NCBI GenBank assembly: GCA_036000965.1
Contig: DASYUT010000253.1
Span: 1-64,000 of the forward strand
Length of the DNA: 64,000 nucleotides
Reading direction: 5' to 3'
Source: Actinomycetes bacterium
Lineage (GTDB): Bacteria > Actinomycetota > CALGFH01
Positions 2-6,250 of the stretch are shown piece by piece. The position numbers and the translations under genes were made by a program. How positions within the stretch are numbered: the first letter of the stretch is position 1; each line of letters begins with the position of its first letter. The notes under the pieces were generated by a model. The model searched no databases. It saw only the letters and a list, made by a program, of their open reading frames with translations, and was not told where the DNA came from.

Positions 2-1459
2 ATGAGCGGCCTGGAGTTCCTGGAGCAGGCCATGGACCTGTTCCCGCATGCGCGGCGGGCGCTGCTGACCGCCTACGCCGACACCGACGCCGCGATCCAG
101 GCGATCAACGTGGTGGACCTCGACCACTACCTGCTGAAGCCGTGGGACCCGCCTGAGGAGAAGCTCTACCCGGTCGTCGACGCGCTGATCGAGCTGTGGC
201 TCGTCACCGGGGACAAGCCGGTCACCGAGACCCAGGTGGTTGGGCACCGCTGGTCGGCGCGCTCGTTCGAGGTCCGGGACTTCCTCGCGCGGAACTCGGT
301 GCCGTACCGCTGGCTCACCGTCGAGCAGCCGGAGGGCCAGGGGCTGCTCGAGGCTGCCGGGCTCGACGCCACCAGCATCCCGCTGGTGGTGACGCCCGCC
401 GGCGACTCCCTGGTCGACCCGAGCGTCGAGGAGCTGGCCGCCCGGGTGGGCCTGTCGACCACGCCCGCCACTGACTTCTACGACACGGTGATCGTCGGCG
501 GTGGGCCCGCCGGGCTTGGCGCGGTCGTGTACGCCGCGTCAGAGGGGCTGCGCACGGTCCTGCTCGAGCGGCAGGCCACCGGCGGGCAGGCGGGCCAGAG
601 CTCGCGGATCGAGAACTACCTCGGCTTTCCCGACGGCGTCAGCGGCGCGCAGCTCACCGACCGGGCACGTCGCCAGGCCCACAAGTTCGGCGCGGAGATC
701 CTCACCGCCCGCAGCGTCGCCGGCCTCGAGGTGCGCGGGTCGTCCCGCGTGGTCCGCTTCGCCAACGGCAGCGAGGTCGCCGCCCACACGGTGGTGCTCG
801 CCACCGGTGTCGCCTACCACAAGCTCGATGTGCCCGGCGCCGACCAGCTCACCGGCCTGGGGGTGTTCTACGGGTCGGCCGCGACCGAGGCGCCCGCCTG
901 CGCCGGCGAGGACGTCTACGTGGTTGGGGGCGCCAACGCCGCCGGCCAGGCGGCGGTGTTCCTGTCCAGGCACGCGCGGCGGGTCACGCTGCTGGTGCGC
1001 GCGGACGGCCTGGAGCAGTCCATGTCGTACTACCTCATCCGCCAGATCCGCGACACGCCCAACATCGAGGTGCGACCCCGCACCCAGGTGGTCGGGGCGG
1101 CGGGCCAGGAGCACCTGGAGCGGCTCAGCCTCTGCGACACCCGCGCCGGCACGGTGGAGGAGGTGCCGGCGAGCTTCCTGTTCGTGTTCATCGGCGCGGC
1201 GCCGTGCACCGAATGGCTCGACGGCGTGATCGAGCGTGACCCCAAGGGGTTCCTGCTCACCGGCCCAGACCTGCTGGTCGGCGGGAAGCGGCCAACGGGC
1301 TGGCCGCTGAACCGGGACCCCTACTACCTGGAGGGCAGCGTGCCAGGGATCTTCGCCGCCGGCGACGTGCGCGCCAACTCGGTGAAGCGGGTCGCCTCCG
1401 CGGTCGGTGAAGGGGCGACGGCGATCCAGCTCGTCCACCGTTACCTGGAGACCCAGTGA
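2..1459 (+). CDS. REC / thioredoxin-reductase-like FAD oxidoreductase, 5' partial
   Basis: The gene runs off the left edge. The first visible Met (MSGLEFLEQ) looks like the inside of a response-regulator receiver domain, not a true start. Residues 1-70 are the receiver C-terminal half (TAYADTDAAI, then the Lys of LLKPWDP). Residues 77-150 resemble a glutaredoxin-like fold without a Cys pair. From about 160 follows a thioredoxin-reductase-type flavoprotein with FAD motif GGGPAGLG, an NAD(P) motif VVGGANAAGQAA and the closing GEGATA region. The redox CxxC is absent: only a lone Cys (about residue 300, APACAGED) stands there, so disulfide reductase activity is unlikely. It overlaps the next kinase by 4 bp, so the two probably form one operon and sensory unit. 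Function of the family is poorly known. Confidence 0.88.
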   Translation: MSGLEFLEQAMDLFPHARRALLTAYADTDAAIQAINVVDLDHYLLKPWDPPEEKLYPVVDALIELWLVTGDKPVTETQVVGHRWSARSFEVRDFLARNSVPYRWLTVEQPEGQGLLEAAGLDATSIPLVVTPAGDSLVDPSVEELAARVGLSTTPATDFYDTVIVGGGPAGLGAVVYAASEGLRTVLLERQATGGQAGQSSRIENYLGFPDGVSGAQLTDRARRQAHKFGAEILTARSVAGLEVRGSSRVVRFANGSEVAAHTVVLATGVAYHKLDVPGADQLTGLGVFYGSAATEAPACAGEDVYVVGGANAAGQAAVFLSRHARRVTLLVRADGLEQSMSYYLIRQIRDTPNIEVRPRTQVVGAAGQEHLERLSLCDTRAGTVEEVPASFLFVFIGAAPCTEWLDGVIERDPKGFLLTGPDLLVGGKRPTGWPLNRDPYYLEGSVPGIFAAGDVRANSVKRVASAVGEGATAIQLVHRYLETQ

Positions 1460-2880
1460 CCGAGCGGCTCGGCGCCGAGGCGCTCCGGGAGCTGTTCCTG
1501 TTCGAGAAGCTGAGCGACGAGCAGCTCGCCTGGCTCGCGGAGCGCGGCGAGGTCAGGAGCTACCCGGCCGGCACGACCATGTACACCGCTGGCGAGCCCG
1601 CGACCCGCCTGTTCGTGCTGCTGGATGGCACGCTGTCGATGTCGGTGCGGGCGGGCGGCACCGAGATCGAGATGAACCGCTCCGACTACCGGGGCACCTA
1701 CGCTGGCGCGTTCTTGGCGTACCTGGACGTGCCCCCGCGCTCGTACGTCGGCAGCCTCCGTGCCGTGACCGGCTGCCGCTTCTGGGAGCTGGCCGCCACC
1801 GACTTCGGCTGGGCGGTGCGGGAGTGGTTCCCGATGGCGACGCACCTGCTGCAGGGCTTCGCCATCCAGGGGATGGCTACGCAGCAGACGGTGAGCACGC
1901 GCGAGCGGCTGGTCGCCCTCGGCACGGTCACCGCCGGCCTCACCCATGAGCTGAACAACCCGGCGACCGCCGCCGTCCGCGCCACCGCCACCCTCCACGA
2001 GCGGCTGGCGGGCCTGTGGGGCGAGCTGGCCGCGCTCACCCACCACGGTGAGCTTGCGGCCGGCCGGCTCGCCACGCTGGTCGACCTCGTGCGCCAGGCC
2101 CTCGGTCGTCGTGCCGAGCTGGCGCCCCTGTCCCCGTTGCAGGCGTCCGACCGTGAGGACGAGCTGGGCGGCTGGCTGGAGGAGCACGGCGTCGCCGGTG
2201 GCTGGGACCTCACGCCGCCGCTGGTCGCCGCCGGCGTGGACGCCGCCTGGCTCGAGCAGGTCGCCGCGAGCGTCCCCGCCGAGCTGCTCCCGCATGCTGT
2301 GGGCGTCGTCGCCGTCACCTGCGAAGCCGAGAGCCTGCTCGATGAGCTCGCCGACGCGGCCGCGCGCATCTCCAAGCTCATCGGCGCGGCCAAGCAGTAC
2401 ACGCAGATGGACCGCAGCCCTCTGCAGCACCTCGATGTGCACGACGGGCTCGAGTCGACCCTGACGATGCTCGGGCACAAGCTCGGCACGGGCATCGAAG
2501 TGGTGCGCGACTACGACCGGTCGCTGCCGAAGCTCCCCGCCTACGCGGGCGAGCTGAACCAGGTGTGGACCAACCTGATCGACAACGCCGTCGACGCCAT
2601 GGACGGCCGCGGCATCCTGACGGTGCGCACCCGCCGCGACGGCGACCGCGTGCTGGTCGAGATCGGCGACACCGGCCCGGGCATCCCTGAGCGGGTCGGC
2701 GCCCACATCTTCGAGCCGTTCTACACCACCAAGCCGGTCGGCAAGGGCACCGGCCTCGGCCTCGACATCTGTTGGCGGATCGTCGTGCAACGCCACAGCG
2801 GCGACCTGCGTGTCACCTCAACCCCGGGCGACACCCGCTTCCAGGTGCTGCTGCCCACGGGCGGTCCCCCCACCCAGTAG
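1456..2880 (+). CDS. Cyclic-nucleotide-domain sensor histidine kinase
   Basis: A 474-residue soluble kinase with no membrane segment. Residues 1-140 form a CRP-type cyclic nucleotide-binding domain (YPAGTTMYTAGEPATRLFVLL). The phospho-acceptor is His164 in LTHELNNP. A long helical insert separates it from the ATPase domain, which has the N box NLIDNAVDAMDG (about 373-384), the G box GDTGPGIPE and GKGTGLGL. The GTG start overlaps the TGA of the preceding flavoprotein (GTGA), which indicates translational coupling. The upstream receiver domain fused to the flavoprotein is the likely phosphotransfer partner. This pairing of a CRP-domain kinase with a TrxR-like protein recurs in soil bacteria. 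Assignment to the kinase family is firm; the signal (cNMP, redox or other) is inference. Confidence 0.9.
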   Translation: MTERLGAEALRELFLFEKLSDEQLAWLAERGEVRSYPAGTTMYTAGEPATRLFVLLDGTLSMSVRAGGTEIEMNRSDYRGTYAGAFLAYLDVPPRSYVGSLRAVTGCRFWELAATDFGWAVREWFPMATHLLQGFAIQGMATQQTVSTRERLVALGTVTAGLTHELNNPATAAVRATATLHERLAGLWGELAALTHHGELAAGRLATLVDLVRQALGRRAELAPLSPLQASDREDELGGWLEEHGVAGGWDLTPPLVAAGVDAAWLEQVAASVPAELLPHAVGVVAVTCEAESLLDELADAAARISKLIGAAKQYTQMDRSPLQHLDVHDGLESTLTMLGHKLGTGIEVVRDYDRSLPKLPAYAGELNQVWTNLIDNAVDAMDGRGILTVRTRRDGDRVLVEIGDTGPGIPERVGAHIFEPFYTTKPVGKGTGLGLDICWRIVVQRHSGDLRVTSTPGDTRFQVLLPTGGPPTQ

Positions 2881-2975
2881 GGATGAGCAGCTCGGCCGCT
2901 GCCGGCGCTCGTTGTCGAGCTTGAGCGGCGGCCCCCGGTCGCATCAGGCGAGCTCGAAGCGCAGAGGGAGGTGGC

Positions 2976-4058
2976 TCAGCCGGTGTCGGTACCGGCGCGG
3001 GCCGGGGCGCGGAGAGGGGCGGTGGCGAGCTCGGCCATGCCGTCGGCGAAGCCGACCAGGGCCCGGAAGCCGAGCCGCTCGGCGGCCAGCTCGGGCGAGG
3101 CGACGACGTGGCGGACGTCGCCGGGCCGCCAGCCGCCCACCACCTCGGGGGCCGGCCCGCCCACGGCGGCGGCGATCGCCGCCGCCATCTCCCCCACCGT
3201 GTGCGGCTCGCCGCTGGCCACGTTGAACGCGCCGAGCACCGGCCGGGGAGCGGTCAGCGCCAGCACGTTGGCGCGGGCCACGTCGGCGACGTGGACGAAG
3301 TCGCGCCGCTGGCGCCCGTCCTCGAACACCCGAGGGGGGCGCCCGTCGGCCAGCGCGCTGCGGAAGATGGCGGCCACCCCGGCGTAGGGGGTGTCCCGGG
3401 GCATCCGCGGTCCGTAGACGTTGTGGTAGCGCAGGGCGGTCACGGCCGGACCGCCCTGCAGCATGGCGGCCGTGGCGAGCTGCTCCTGGTGGAGCTTGGT
3501 GGCCGCGTAGACGTTGCGCGGGTCGGTGGGCGCGTCCTCGGTGACGGCGACCGGGCCGACCTCGGCGCCGCAGCACGGGCAGACCGGCTCCCAGCGCCCG
3601 GCCGCGAGCCGTTCGACCGGGCGCGGGGCAGGGCGTACCCCGCCGTGCTCGCCGCACCGGTACCCGCCCTCGCCGTAGACGACCATCGAGCTGGCCAGCA
3701 CCAGCCGGTCGACCTGCCCCCGGCGCCGGTGCAACGCGGCGAGCAGGGCCGCGGTCCCCAGGTCGTTGTCGCGGACGTAGTCGACGACGTCGGCCACGTC
3801 CCGGCCGAGCCCGACCATGGCTGCCTGGTGGCTGACCGCGTCGACGCCGTCGAGGGCGGCGTCGAGCGCCACCCCGGCCGCCGGGTCTGCCAGGTCGACC
3901 TCCCAGAACTCGGCGTCGTCGCGGAGGTGGTCGGGCCGCCCGGCATGCGCGTTGGGGTGCAGCCGGTCGAGCACCCGCACGCGGTGGCCGAGCTCGACCA
4001 GCCGGTCCACGACGTGGCTTCCGATGAACCCGGCCCCGCCGGTGACCAGGACGCGCAT
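2976..4058 (-). CDS. NAD-dependent epimerase/dehydratase (extended SDR)
   Basis: A 360-residue extended short-chain dehydrogenase. The Rossmann motif TGGAGFIGSH is at 6-15 and the catalytic Tyr184-x3-Lys188 in NVYAATKLHQ. It resembles UDP-glucose 4-epimerase-like nucleotide-sugar enzymes. Between strands there is a cysteine-rich insert (Cys135, His138, Cys160, Cys162, Cys163; WEPVCPCCGAEVG) that looks like a small zinc-binding knuckle and marks a subfamily of these epimerases. The start ATG is the first Met and matches the family N-terminus exactly. It is convergent with the kinase upstream and divergent from the response regulator at 4245. The sugar substrate cannot be predicted, but a role in cell-surface glycan precursors is usual. 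Confidence 0.88.
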   Translation of the reverse strand: MRVLVTGGAGFIGSHVVDRLVELGHRVRVLDRLHPNAHAGRPDHLRDDAEFWEVDLADPAAGVALDAALDGVDAVSHQAAMVGLGRDVADVVDYVRDNDLGTAALLAALHRRRGQVDRLVLASSMVVYGEGGYRCGEHGGVRPAPRPVERLAAGRWEPVCPCCGAEVGPVAVTEDAPTDPRNVYAATKLHQEQLATAAMLQGGPAVTALRYHNVYGPRMPRDTPYAGVAAIFRSALADGRPPRVFEDGRQRRDFVHVADVARANVLALTAPRPVLGAFNVASGEPHTVGEMAAAIAAAVGGPAPEVVGGWRPGDVRHVVASPELAAERLGFRALVGFADGMAELATAPLRAPARAGTDTG

Positions 4059-4244
4059 GACCTGGGAGCCTGCCGCCCGCGGCTCCCGCGGTCAACCGTT
4101 CCACCCTTACGAAGTCGTGACGGCGCGCGGGCCGGCCTGGCGGCCGCCGCGCTGGTGTGCCACCGTCGGGCGGGTGGACCGGGACCGGCGTCCGCGTGCC
4201 GCGCTGCCGGCCGACACCGGCCCGACCGGGGAGGAGGGGGCGGG

Positions 4245-4985
4245 ATGGCCGGGGAGCGGGTGCTGGTGGTCGACGACGAGCCGACCGTCGGCGAGGTCGT
4301 CCGGCACTACCTGGAGCGGGAGGGCTACCGGGTCGAGGTGGCCCGCGACGGCGCCCGGGCGCTCGAGGCCGTCGCCACCCGCGCCCCCGACCTCGTGATC
4401 CTCGACCTCATGCTGCCGGCCGTTGACGGGCTGGACGTCTGCCGCCAGGTGCGGGCGGCCGGCGCCACGCCGATCATCATGCTGACCGCCAAGGGCGGGG
4501 AGGCCGACCGGGTCCTCGGCCTCGAGCTTGGCGCCGACGACTACGTCGTCAAGCCGTTCAGCCCCCGCGAGCTGGTCGCCCGCGTCCGCAGCGTCCTGCG
4601 CCGGACCCGGCCGACCGACGGCCCCCGCCCGCTGCCCGTCCGGGCCGGCGACGTCGTGGTCGACCCGGTCACCCGCGAGGTCGAGGTGGCCGGCCGCCAG
4701 GTCGCGCTCACCGTCCGGGAGTTCGACCTCCTGCTGTTCCTCGTCCGCCACCCGCGCCAGGTGTTCACCCGCGGGCAGCTCCTGCAGCAGGTCTGGGAGT
4801 ACGCCTGGCTCGGCGACACGTCGACCGTGACGGTGCACGTGCGCCGGCTGCGCGAGAAGGTCGAGGACGACTCGTCCAACCCGCGACGGGTCCAGACCGT
4901 CTACGGCGTCGGCTACCGGTTCGTGCCCGTCGGGCCAGGCGAGGCGCTGGTCGCCAGGGAGGGCTTGGAAGGAGGGGCGGGATGA
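4245..4985 (+). CDS. OmpR-family response regulator
   Basis: A 246-residue transcription factor. The receiver domain has the acidic pocket VVDDE (9-12), phospho-acceptor Asp54 in LVILDLMLP and Lys103 in DDYVVKPFSP. The C-terminal winged helix (about 150-240) ends with TVYGVGYRF, typical of the OmpR/PhoB class. The ATG at 4245 is preceded by GAGGAGGGGGCGGG, a very strong ribosome site. The stop overlaps the start of the histidine kinase at 4982 (ATGA), so the two form a co-translated pair. Targets are not visible from the sequence. Confidence 0.95.
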   Translation: MAGERVLVVDDEPTVGEVVRHYLEREGYRVEVARDGARALEAVATRAPDLVILDLMLPAVDGLDVCRQVRAAGATPIIMLTAKGGEADRVLGLELGADDYVVKPFSPRELVARVRSVLRRTRPTDGPRPLPVRAGDVVVDPVTREVEVAGRQVALTVREFDLLLFLVRHPRQVFTRGQLLQQVWEYAWLGDTSTVTVHVRRLREKVEDDSSNPRRVQTVYGVGYRFVPVGPGEALVAREGLEGGAG

Positions 4986-6250
4986 AGCGTCGACATGCAC
5001 TCCAACCGGCGCTGTGGTTCGGGATCGGCGTCGCGGGAACCGCCTTGGTCGCCGCTGCTGCGGGCATCCCGTGGCCCGACCTGGCCATGCTGCTCGGCCT
5101 CAGCACCGCCGGCGGGCTCGCGGTCGCCGTGGCCGGGCTCGGCCTGCAGAGCCGGCTGCGCCGGCAGCGGGCCGCCATGGCCAGGCAGACCGCGCTCACC
5201 GCCGCGGTGACGGCTGGCGCCGCCCTGGCTGCGCTCGGCGTCGTGGCCGCGTGCATGCTGGCCAGCCCCCACGACCTGTCCGTCGTCGTCGCCTCGCTCC
5301 CCCTGGCCGCGGGCGCCGGCGTGGCCTACGGCATCGTCAGCTCGCGACGGACCGCGGCCGACCTCGAAGCATTGGCCGAGGTGGCGCGCCGCCTCGAGGC
5401 GGGCGACCTGTCCGCCCGAGCCCGCCTTGGCGGCACGCCCGAGGTGGCCGCCGTCGCGGAGAGCCTGAACGCGGCCGCCGCGCGGCTGGCCGACGCCCGC
5501 GAGCGGGAGCGGGCGGTCGAGGCGAGCCGACGCGACCTGGTCGCCTGGGCGTCGCACGACCTGAGGACCCCGCTCGCGAGCCTCCGGCTGGTGGCCGAGG
5601 CGCTCGCCGACGACGTGGCTCCCGACGAGGCAACTCGCCGCGGGTACCTGGCCGGCCTGGCTGGGCACGTCGACCGGCTCTCGAGCCTGGTCGACGACCT
5701 GTTCGAGCTGTCGGCGATCCAGGCTGGTGCGGTGGTGCCCCAGCTCGAGCCGACCTCCCTGCCCGAGCTGATCCGGGAGGTGCTGGAGCGGTTTCATCCC
5801 GAAGCCGAGGCAGCGGGGGTGCGGCTCGAGGCCGACCTGCCCCAGGAGTTCCGGATCGTGCTGGCCAGTCGTGACCAGCTCAGCCGCGTACTGGCCAACC
5901 TCGTCGTCAACGGCATCCACCACACCCCACCCGGAGGATCCCTGGTGGTCAGCGCGGACGACGCGGACGACGCGGCGGTGGTCCATGTGCGGGACAGCTG
6001 CGGCGGCATCCCCGCCACCGACCTACGCCGCGTGTTCGACCAGCTCTGGCGGGGCGATCAGGCCCGCTCGACCAGGGGGACCGGGCTCGGCCTCGCCATC
6101 GCCCGGGGGCTCGTCGAAGCCCACGGCGGCACCATCCAGGTGGCCAACGTCGACGGGGGCTGCCAGTTCGCCTTCCAGCTGCCCCACCAGGTCGGCTCCA
6201 GCGCGAGCGTCTGCAACGGTCGTCGGCGCACGACGTCGCCACCGTCGTGA
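4982..6250 (+). CDS. Membrane sensor histidine kinase
   Basis: A 422-residue kinase paired with the OmpR regulator. The N-terminus has four hydrophobic segments (about 10-55 and 70-120) with almost no extracytoplasmic domain, then a HAMP-like linker, the H box WASHDLRTPL (His near 192), an N box (VNGIHHTP), a short G1 region (CGGIPATDL) and GTGLGLAIARGL. Such short-loop kinases often sense membrane or transport state. The D of the usual DxGxG box reads DSCGGIP, a mild deviation. The 4-bp overlap with the regulator supports one operon. Confidence 0.92.
   Translation: MKRRHALQPALWFGIGVAGTALVAAAAGIPWPDLAMLLGLSTAGGLAVAVAGLGLQSRLRRQRAAMARQTALTAAVTAGAALAALGVVAACMLASPHDLSVVVASLPLAAGAGVAYGIVSSRRTAADLEALAEVARRLEAGDLSARARLGGTPEVAAVAESLNAAAARLADARERERAVEASRRDLVAWASHDLRTPLASLRLVAEALADDVAPDEATRRGYLAGLAGHVDRLSSLVDDLFELSAIQAGAVVPQLEPTSLPELIREVLERFHPEAEAAGVRLEADLPQEFRIVLASRDQLSRVLANLVVNGIHHTPPGGSLVVSADDADDAAVVHVRDSCGGIPATDLRRVFDQLWRGDQARSTRGTGLGLAIARGLVEAHGGTIQVANVDGGCQFAFQLPHQVGSSASVCNGRRRTTSPPS

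Follow-up and report, generated by a model that had tools for sequence, protein, structure and literature searches.

Two overlapping genes at a contig edge

The DNA analyzed here, called the window, is a 64,000-nucleotide stretch from an Actinomycetes bacterium (assembly GCA_036000965.1) that starts at base 1 of contig DASYUT010000253.1 (C253). It opens with two forward-strand genes, A and B (Table 1), and both reading frames are present where an initial annotation of this DNA had placed them. Because the window opens at the first base of the contig, gene A starts before the ATG at base 2, which lies within its coding sequence. The Pfam Response_reg match in gene A starts at profile position 55, covering the last half of the domain, and an 85%-identical orthologue has 70 extra N-terminal residues. 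We searched the rest of the genome assembly for the missing 5' end and did not find it.

The gene A product has a receiver (REC), followed by a cysteine-less glutaredoxin (Grx)-like domain and then a thioredoxin reductase (TrxR)-like flavoprotein. Pfam reports these as the last half of Response_reg, a stretch with no named domain, and Pyr_redox_2, which bears out the receiver fusion described by the initial annotation. That annotation had also looked to the full upstream gene and its phosphoacceptor Asp. The window copy is truncated on its 5' side by the contig edge, and the Asp falls in the missing part together with the acidic pair; these residues are intact in all 80 close relatives, the phosphoacceptor being Asp64 in orthologue L009.

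Gene B starts with a GTG codon that overlaps the stop codon of gene A. A fold prediction of its product gave a pLDDT of 83.8 and a pTM of 0.42. The kinase had been called a cNMP-domain kinase, which holds for the fold, with a cyclic nucleotide-binding (CNB) domain match barely above the Pfam cutoff (28.6 versus 27.5 bits). In CRP-type domains, a glutamate binds the cyclic nucleotide. At this cassette position gene B has Ala, as do 96 of the 116 relatives compared (11 have Glu), which makes cyclic-nucleotide sensing doubtful. We disfavored such a cue, and classical binding of cyclic nucleotides by the sensor of gene B is improbable. Farther along the same strand (about 4270 to 6250), the translation shows what looks like a conventional two-component system, in which the genes for an OmpR-like response regulator and a histidine kinase share a few bases.

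Table 1. Features of genes A and B in the window
Feature	Position	Strand	Basis or remark
Gene A, response regulator with flavoprotein output	2..1459	+	485 codons present, ~70 N-terminal codons beyond contig edge
Receiver (REC), C-terminal part	2..196	+	Conserved Thr (LLTAYAD) and Lys (LLKPW)
Glutaredoxin/mycoredoxin-like domain	227..460	+	No cysteine at either active-site position (RWSARS)
TrxR-like FAD/NAD(P)H flavoprotein domain without CxxC	473..1456	+	Pfam, alignment, structure search
Place of the TrxR CATC motif: G-S-A-A-T, residues 291-295	872..886	+	Sequence alignment
Cys300	899..901	+	Invariant in 80 close relatives, variable further out
Overlapping A stop and B start codons (GTGA)	1456..1459	+	Same kind of 4-nt overlap in 40/80 relatives
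Gene B, cytosolic sensor histidine kinase, 474 aa	1456..2880	+	Pfam, alignment
CNB/CRP-fold sensor domain, atypical cassette (GTYAGAF, Glu to Ala)	1483..1830	+	Pfam, alignment
H-box phosphoacceptor His164 (HELNNP)	1945..1947	+	His in 116/116 relatives
HATPase_c catalytic domain	2551..2859	+	Pfam, alignment

Absent cysteine pairs and conserved cofactor motifs

Where the genome's own TrxR (contig C277) reads STCATCDG, gene A reads FYGSAATEA, with G-S-A-A-T-E replacing the TrxR CxxC, and no CxxC occurs anywhere in its 485 residues. The active-site CxxC was found in none of 155 aligned homologues and in none of the eight receiver-bearing plasmid records, which come from four phyla. The single CxxC among 81 aligned rows (CTCC in L064) is not at the TrxR site. 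The loss of the redox cysteine pair, which the initial annotation had pointed out, is thus a property of the aligned family. Without a dithiol, the TrxR cycle is closed to the flavoprotein, and the statement that it is not a reductase is supported in the sense of not a TrxR-type disulfide reductase.

The Grx-like assignment of the middle domain also proved real at the profile level. A family profile matched the glutaredoxin Rv3198.1 (PDB 2lqo; E value of 2.9e-6), a mycoredoxin/glutaredoxin that is the closest solved sequence to this domain, and the WCGYC of that protein aligns to RWSxxS in the family. The predicted order of strands and helices is E-H-E-H-E-E-H. Pfam Glutaredoxin gave a weak match in four of seven relatives and none in the closest orthologue. 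By profile, the middle domain is a Grx fold, and no CxxC was found in it in 30 alignment rows. Since the TrxR-like and Grx-like sites each have no cysteines, both cysteine pairs expected in cis are gone.

The cofactor motifs, on the other hand, are kept. The FAD motif positions GxGxxG, GGQ, ATG, and GD are each retained in 154 or 155 of the 155 rows, and NSA of the dinucleotide site is present in all 155. The HRRxxxR motif binds the 2'-phosphate of NADPH. Its first Arg is found in 153 of the 155 homologues, and the His and the second Arg are mostly changed; because two of the three HRR residues are not conserved, gene A may use either NADPH or NADH. An inserted segment of about 20 conserved residues (GPDL...W.L.R.P..LE) precedes the GD motif and is absent from the genome's own TrxR. 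Gene A scored 212 bits against the NCBIfam thioredoxin reductase model TIGR01292 (cutoff, 343.45 bits; full-length orthologue, 215.5 bits) and 64.3 bits against TIGR04018, the YpdA bacillithiol disulfide reductase model (cutoff, 339.9 bits).

We modeled the L009 orthologue with AlphaFold2, with middling confidence (pLDDT of 79.7 and pTM of 0.60). The list of structure matches is filled by the TrxR domain and therefore covers that domain, not the REC or Grx-like domain. The model superposed on TrxR entry 5mh4, which is in the flavin-reducing arrangement, with a Z score of 33.9 and 2.0 Å over 300 residues, compared with 6.6 Å for 5mjk, in the other TrxR arrangement, and about 6 Å for most other TrxR entries. 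This is a hint, within the limits of a predicted model, that gene A may fit the flavin-reducing arrangement better than the other one. The match to 8c16, representing a comparison with TrxR-like ferredoxin/flavodoxin-NADP reductases, was weaker (Z score of 27.1, 21% identity).

Known relatives place the family further. Thioredoxin reductase TrxB (C277; PDB 5mh4 and 1f6m) shares the fold and the FAD and dinucleotide motifs with gene A, and the solved TrxRs in the match list have 26 to 35% identity to it. Gene A differs from TrxB in having no CxxC, in the insertion before GD, in the fused REC and Grx-like domains, and in falling below the NCBIfam cutoff. AhpF (Foldseek ranks 2, 3, and 5) resembles gene A in having thioredoxin (Trx)-fold domain(s) ahead of a TrxR-like module. 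However, AhpF retains both CxxC pairs, while gene A has neither. A Deinococcus aquaticus protein, named "cyclic nucleotide-binding domain-containing thioredoxin-disulfide reductase" in RefSeq, shares the Grx-like and CxxC-less TrxR-like core. It differs from gene A in that a CNB domain, which keeps a GEL motif, is fused in place of REC, and no kinase was seen beside it.

We considered Cys300 as a lone catalytic cysteine, as in YpdA, and rejected it. Cys occupies this position in all 80 close relatives. In the raw split of a second set of homologues described below, it was found in 28 of 35 kinase-paired and 2 of 34 kinase-less members, the position being taken elsewhere by Tyr, Phe, His, Val, Thr, Met, Leu, and others. 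Because it is replaced in more distant homologues, Cys300 is not a family-wide catalytic residue.

Kinase linkage and receiver residues across the family

In a scan of genomes, 484 relatives were confirmed, and the 80 with the best scores were kept (L009 and L099 denote a single contig). Genes A and B were on the same strand in 80 of these 80 loci and within 154 nucleotides of each other in 78, the exceptions being L011 (793 nucleotides) and L039 (3,874 nucleotides). As they are same-strand neighbors in all 80 of these loci, their pairing is not a chance arrangement. Together with the GTGA overlap, this upholds the coupling to a kinase described in the initial annotation. The invariance across the 80 loci partly reflects closeness, since they were chosen by score as the top 80 out of 484. 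The window's phylum was sampled with 296 genomes, and 54 of these had a relative at an E value of 1e-90 or better.

Relatives were also found on plasmid records of Deinococcus, Caballeronia, Paraburkholderia, Nostoc, and Gloeothece. The receiver Asp-Thr-Lys set was kept in all eight receiver-bearing plasmid records, and a B-like kinase lay directly beside gene A in seven of them; in Nostoc edaphicum, a transposase gene and another gene separate the two. The Caballeronia (L174) and Paraburkholderia (L177) loci have a B-like kinase on each side of gene A. A role in anti-phage defense was rejected, as neither A nor B had a PADLOC match. Two further paralogues in the window's genome look broken, as pseudogenes or through assembly faults: L093 (contig C211), where the flavoprotein is divided between two frames next to a CNB-like fragment, and L097 (contig C281), where the frame contains a TGA.

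The initial annotation had suggested that the flavoprotein could be phosphorylation-gated, and for this the receiver residues give indirect support where a kinase is adjacent. Asp-Thr-Lys was intact in all 80 best loci. A second set comprised 69 receiver-bearing homologues (the receiver-less L093, L096, L111, L158, L170, and L171 were left out). The first automatic split of this set gave an intact trio in 35 of 35 kinase-adjacent homologues versus 6 of 34 with no kinase detected. All 34 kinase-less rows were rechecked, four of them with gene calls, and three were moved to the kinase-adjacent group. L131 and L140 carry gene B fragments at contig ends, the L131 fragment being judged by eye from the gene call (tblastn gave no match there), and L143 has a B-type kinase with REC instead of the CNB sensor, ending just upstream of A. 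All three moves shift the counts toward our reading. The trio was then intact in 38 of 38 kinase-adjacent homologues versus 3 of 31 where no kinase was found (Fisher P value of 2.7e-16, with rows treated as independent and kinship ignored). The three are L145, itself cut at its 5' end, L152, and L154. In L110, L149, and L156, less than 900 nucleotides follow gene A, and a kinase may be cut off there too.

Phylogenetic analysis used every fourth of the 80 loci as a subsample and midpoint rooting. The phosphoacceptor Asp was lost at least eight times on this tree, always among kinase-less members, versus no loss in 58 kinase-linked leaves. Kinase linkage itself changes once, and the correlation between receiver and kinase is therefore a contrast of two clades; the only replicated part is the recurrent loss of the Asp within a single clade. 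Three paralogues in the window's genome have Ala (contig C229), Gly (C112), or Asp and Lys but not Thr (C148), and no kinase was found near any of the three. Because kinase-less members keep the same flavoprotein, phosphorylation gating is not essential to the flavoprotein chemistry.

We also looked for candidate partners. A gene for a small UBP-type zinc finger (zf-UBP) protein was found in 30 of the 80 best loci and, in the second set, in 12 of 38 kinase-paired versus 1 of 32 kinase-less loci; it overlaps gene B in the Streptomyces fungicidicus and Tsukamurella records. The window has no zf-UBP gene, and three lie elsewhere in the genome. One zf-UBP gene of this genome (L101, positions 5101 to 5927 on contig C124) overlaps what we take to be a DsbA-like gene (CPYS), near a presumed NhaA-like gene. 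Among the 13 largest open reading frame clusters listed, there was no recurrent Trx-fold gene beside the kinase-paired form. L096 (contig C294 of the window's genome) and L111, from two different genomes, are TrxR-like cousins with neither REC nor CxxC in similar neighborhoods, where we take the nearby genes to be DnaJ-like, ClpB-like, and a thioredoxin with WCGPC. On a Gloeocapsa plasmid, a Grx-like and TrxR-like protein without REC or CxxC (L181, positions 2775 to 5311) directly follows two Trx-fold genes (CPNC and CPWC), a possible clue to an electron partner.

A putative two-component system with a redox output

Judged from sequence, A-B is probably a two-component system. Its output would be an NAD(P)H:flavin redox protein gated by phosphorylation, and not a disulfide reductase. 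Gene B would sense a cytosolic cue via its atypical CNB-fold domain and autophosphorylate at His164, and the phosphate would pass to the receiver Asp of gene A (Asp64 of L009). Phosphorylation, acting through a conserved linker and the cysteine-less Grx-like domain, would make the FAD/NAD(P)H flavoprotein at the C terminus more or less active, with a presumed direction of gating. The flavoprotein would most likely take electrons from NAD(P)H and pass them via FAD directly to another acceptor.

The initial annotation, whose observations are confirmed and whose interpretation is partly supported, had instead proposed a flavin sensor. As a redox or NAD(P)H sensor, the flavoprotein would be an input to the kinase or to partners, and the receiver would report or reset it. 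This possible reading, which we do not favor and consider unlikely, fits the retention of cofactor motifs without an obvious catalytic pair, the existence of a REC-sensor version of the kinase, and the missing nucleotide-binding Glu in the kinase CNB of most relatives, which leaves room for a protein input. However, a receiver-first, effector-last order is that of ordinary response regulators, and no feature examined points to signaling from flavin to receiver; since the flavoprotein sits where a response regulator has its output, we rate a gated redox effector no less likely than a sensor. Still less of our confidence goes to a gene A that remains a disulfide reductase, using cysteines of a Trx-fold partner or zinc finger protein that docks on the flavin, which we regard as improbable. 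The zf-UBP neighbors and their distribution, the Trx-fold genes with CxxC near the REC-less cousins L096, L111, and L181, and two statements on SCO7298 in the available text of PMC9952706, its grouping with thioredoxin genes and its induction by sulfane sulfur, agree with such docking. Yet zf-UBP is absent from most loci and from the window, the 13 largest clusters listed show no recurrent Trx-fold neighbor of the kinase-paired form, the fused Grx-like domain no longer has its own active-site cysteines either, and the genes overexpressed according to that text (trxA, trxA3, trxA4, and trxB only) do not include SCO7298, called trxB3. A pseudoenzyme, in which FAD and NAD(P) have a purely structural or docking role and the protein, when phosphorylated, is a scaffold or binding switch, would explain the loss of both redox motifs and could use the family-specific insertion as a partner surface. 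The FAD and dinucleotide motifs, near-invariant over 155 homologues, are more than a scaffold needs, and we consider this very unlikely.

The A-B pair has a probable counterpart that is already catalogued. In the available text of a review of Streptomyces coelicolor two-component systems (PMC9739842), TrxB is listed among enzymatic regulators, and SCO7298 and SCO7297 form a response regulator-histidine kinase pair for which that text gives no function. Like A-B, this TrxB class (P2CS/P2RP) is a receiver-TrxR-like fusion beside a histidine kinase; unlike the catalogue, which in the same text treats the output as a TrxB enzyme, we find a family with no TrxR cysteines and a degenerate Grx-like domain. 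SCO7298 is probably the Streptomyces orthologue of gene A, and each of six genomes of one genus in the 296-genome sample, presumably Streptomyces, had one match. According to the portions available, SCO7298 is upregulated after acid shock (PMC2631018), receiver-thioredoxin reductase regulators are mentioned in archaeal metagenomes (PMC5847659), a TrxB-type regulator was counted in 1 of 17 cyanobacteria (PMC9953108), and the accessible part of PMC8945050 has nothing on the A-B family. In the literature searched, which leaves out most subscription papers, we found no functional study of the family, no report of the missing CxxC, and no assay of FAD, NAD(P)H turnover, or phosphotransfer for A-B.

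What was already known is the catalogued class of TrxB-type regulators, and what is added here is the CxxC loss and the degenerate Grx-like domain across the family. As judged from the alignments, the family is widely conserved in bacteria and is annotated and discussed as thioredoxin reductase though the active site is absent. More tentatively, and with less confidence than we give to the reading of A-B itself, the output of a two-component system in several phyla may be electron flow and not transcription, a dead Grx and dithiol-less TrxR switch gating an NAD(P)H:flavin protein with zf-UBP as a possible partner or electron/zinc target. If the reading of A-B as a pair with a redox output is right, expression studies that count SCO7298 as "trxB3" would need another interpretation, and actinomycetes, Deinococcus, Burkholderia relatives, and cyanobacteria would carry a signaling pathway whose direct targets are the electrons of NAD(P)H and flavin.
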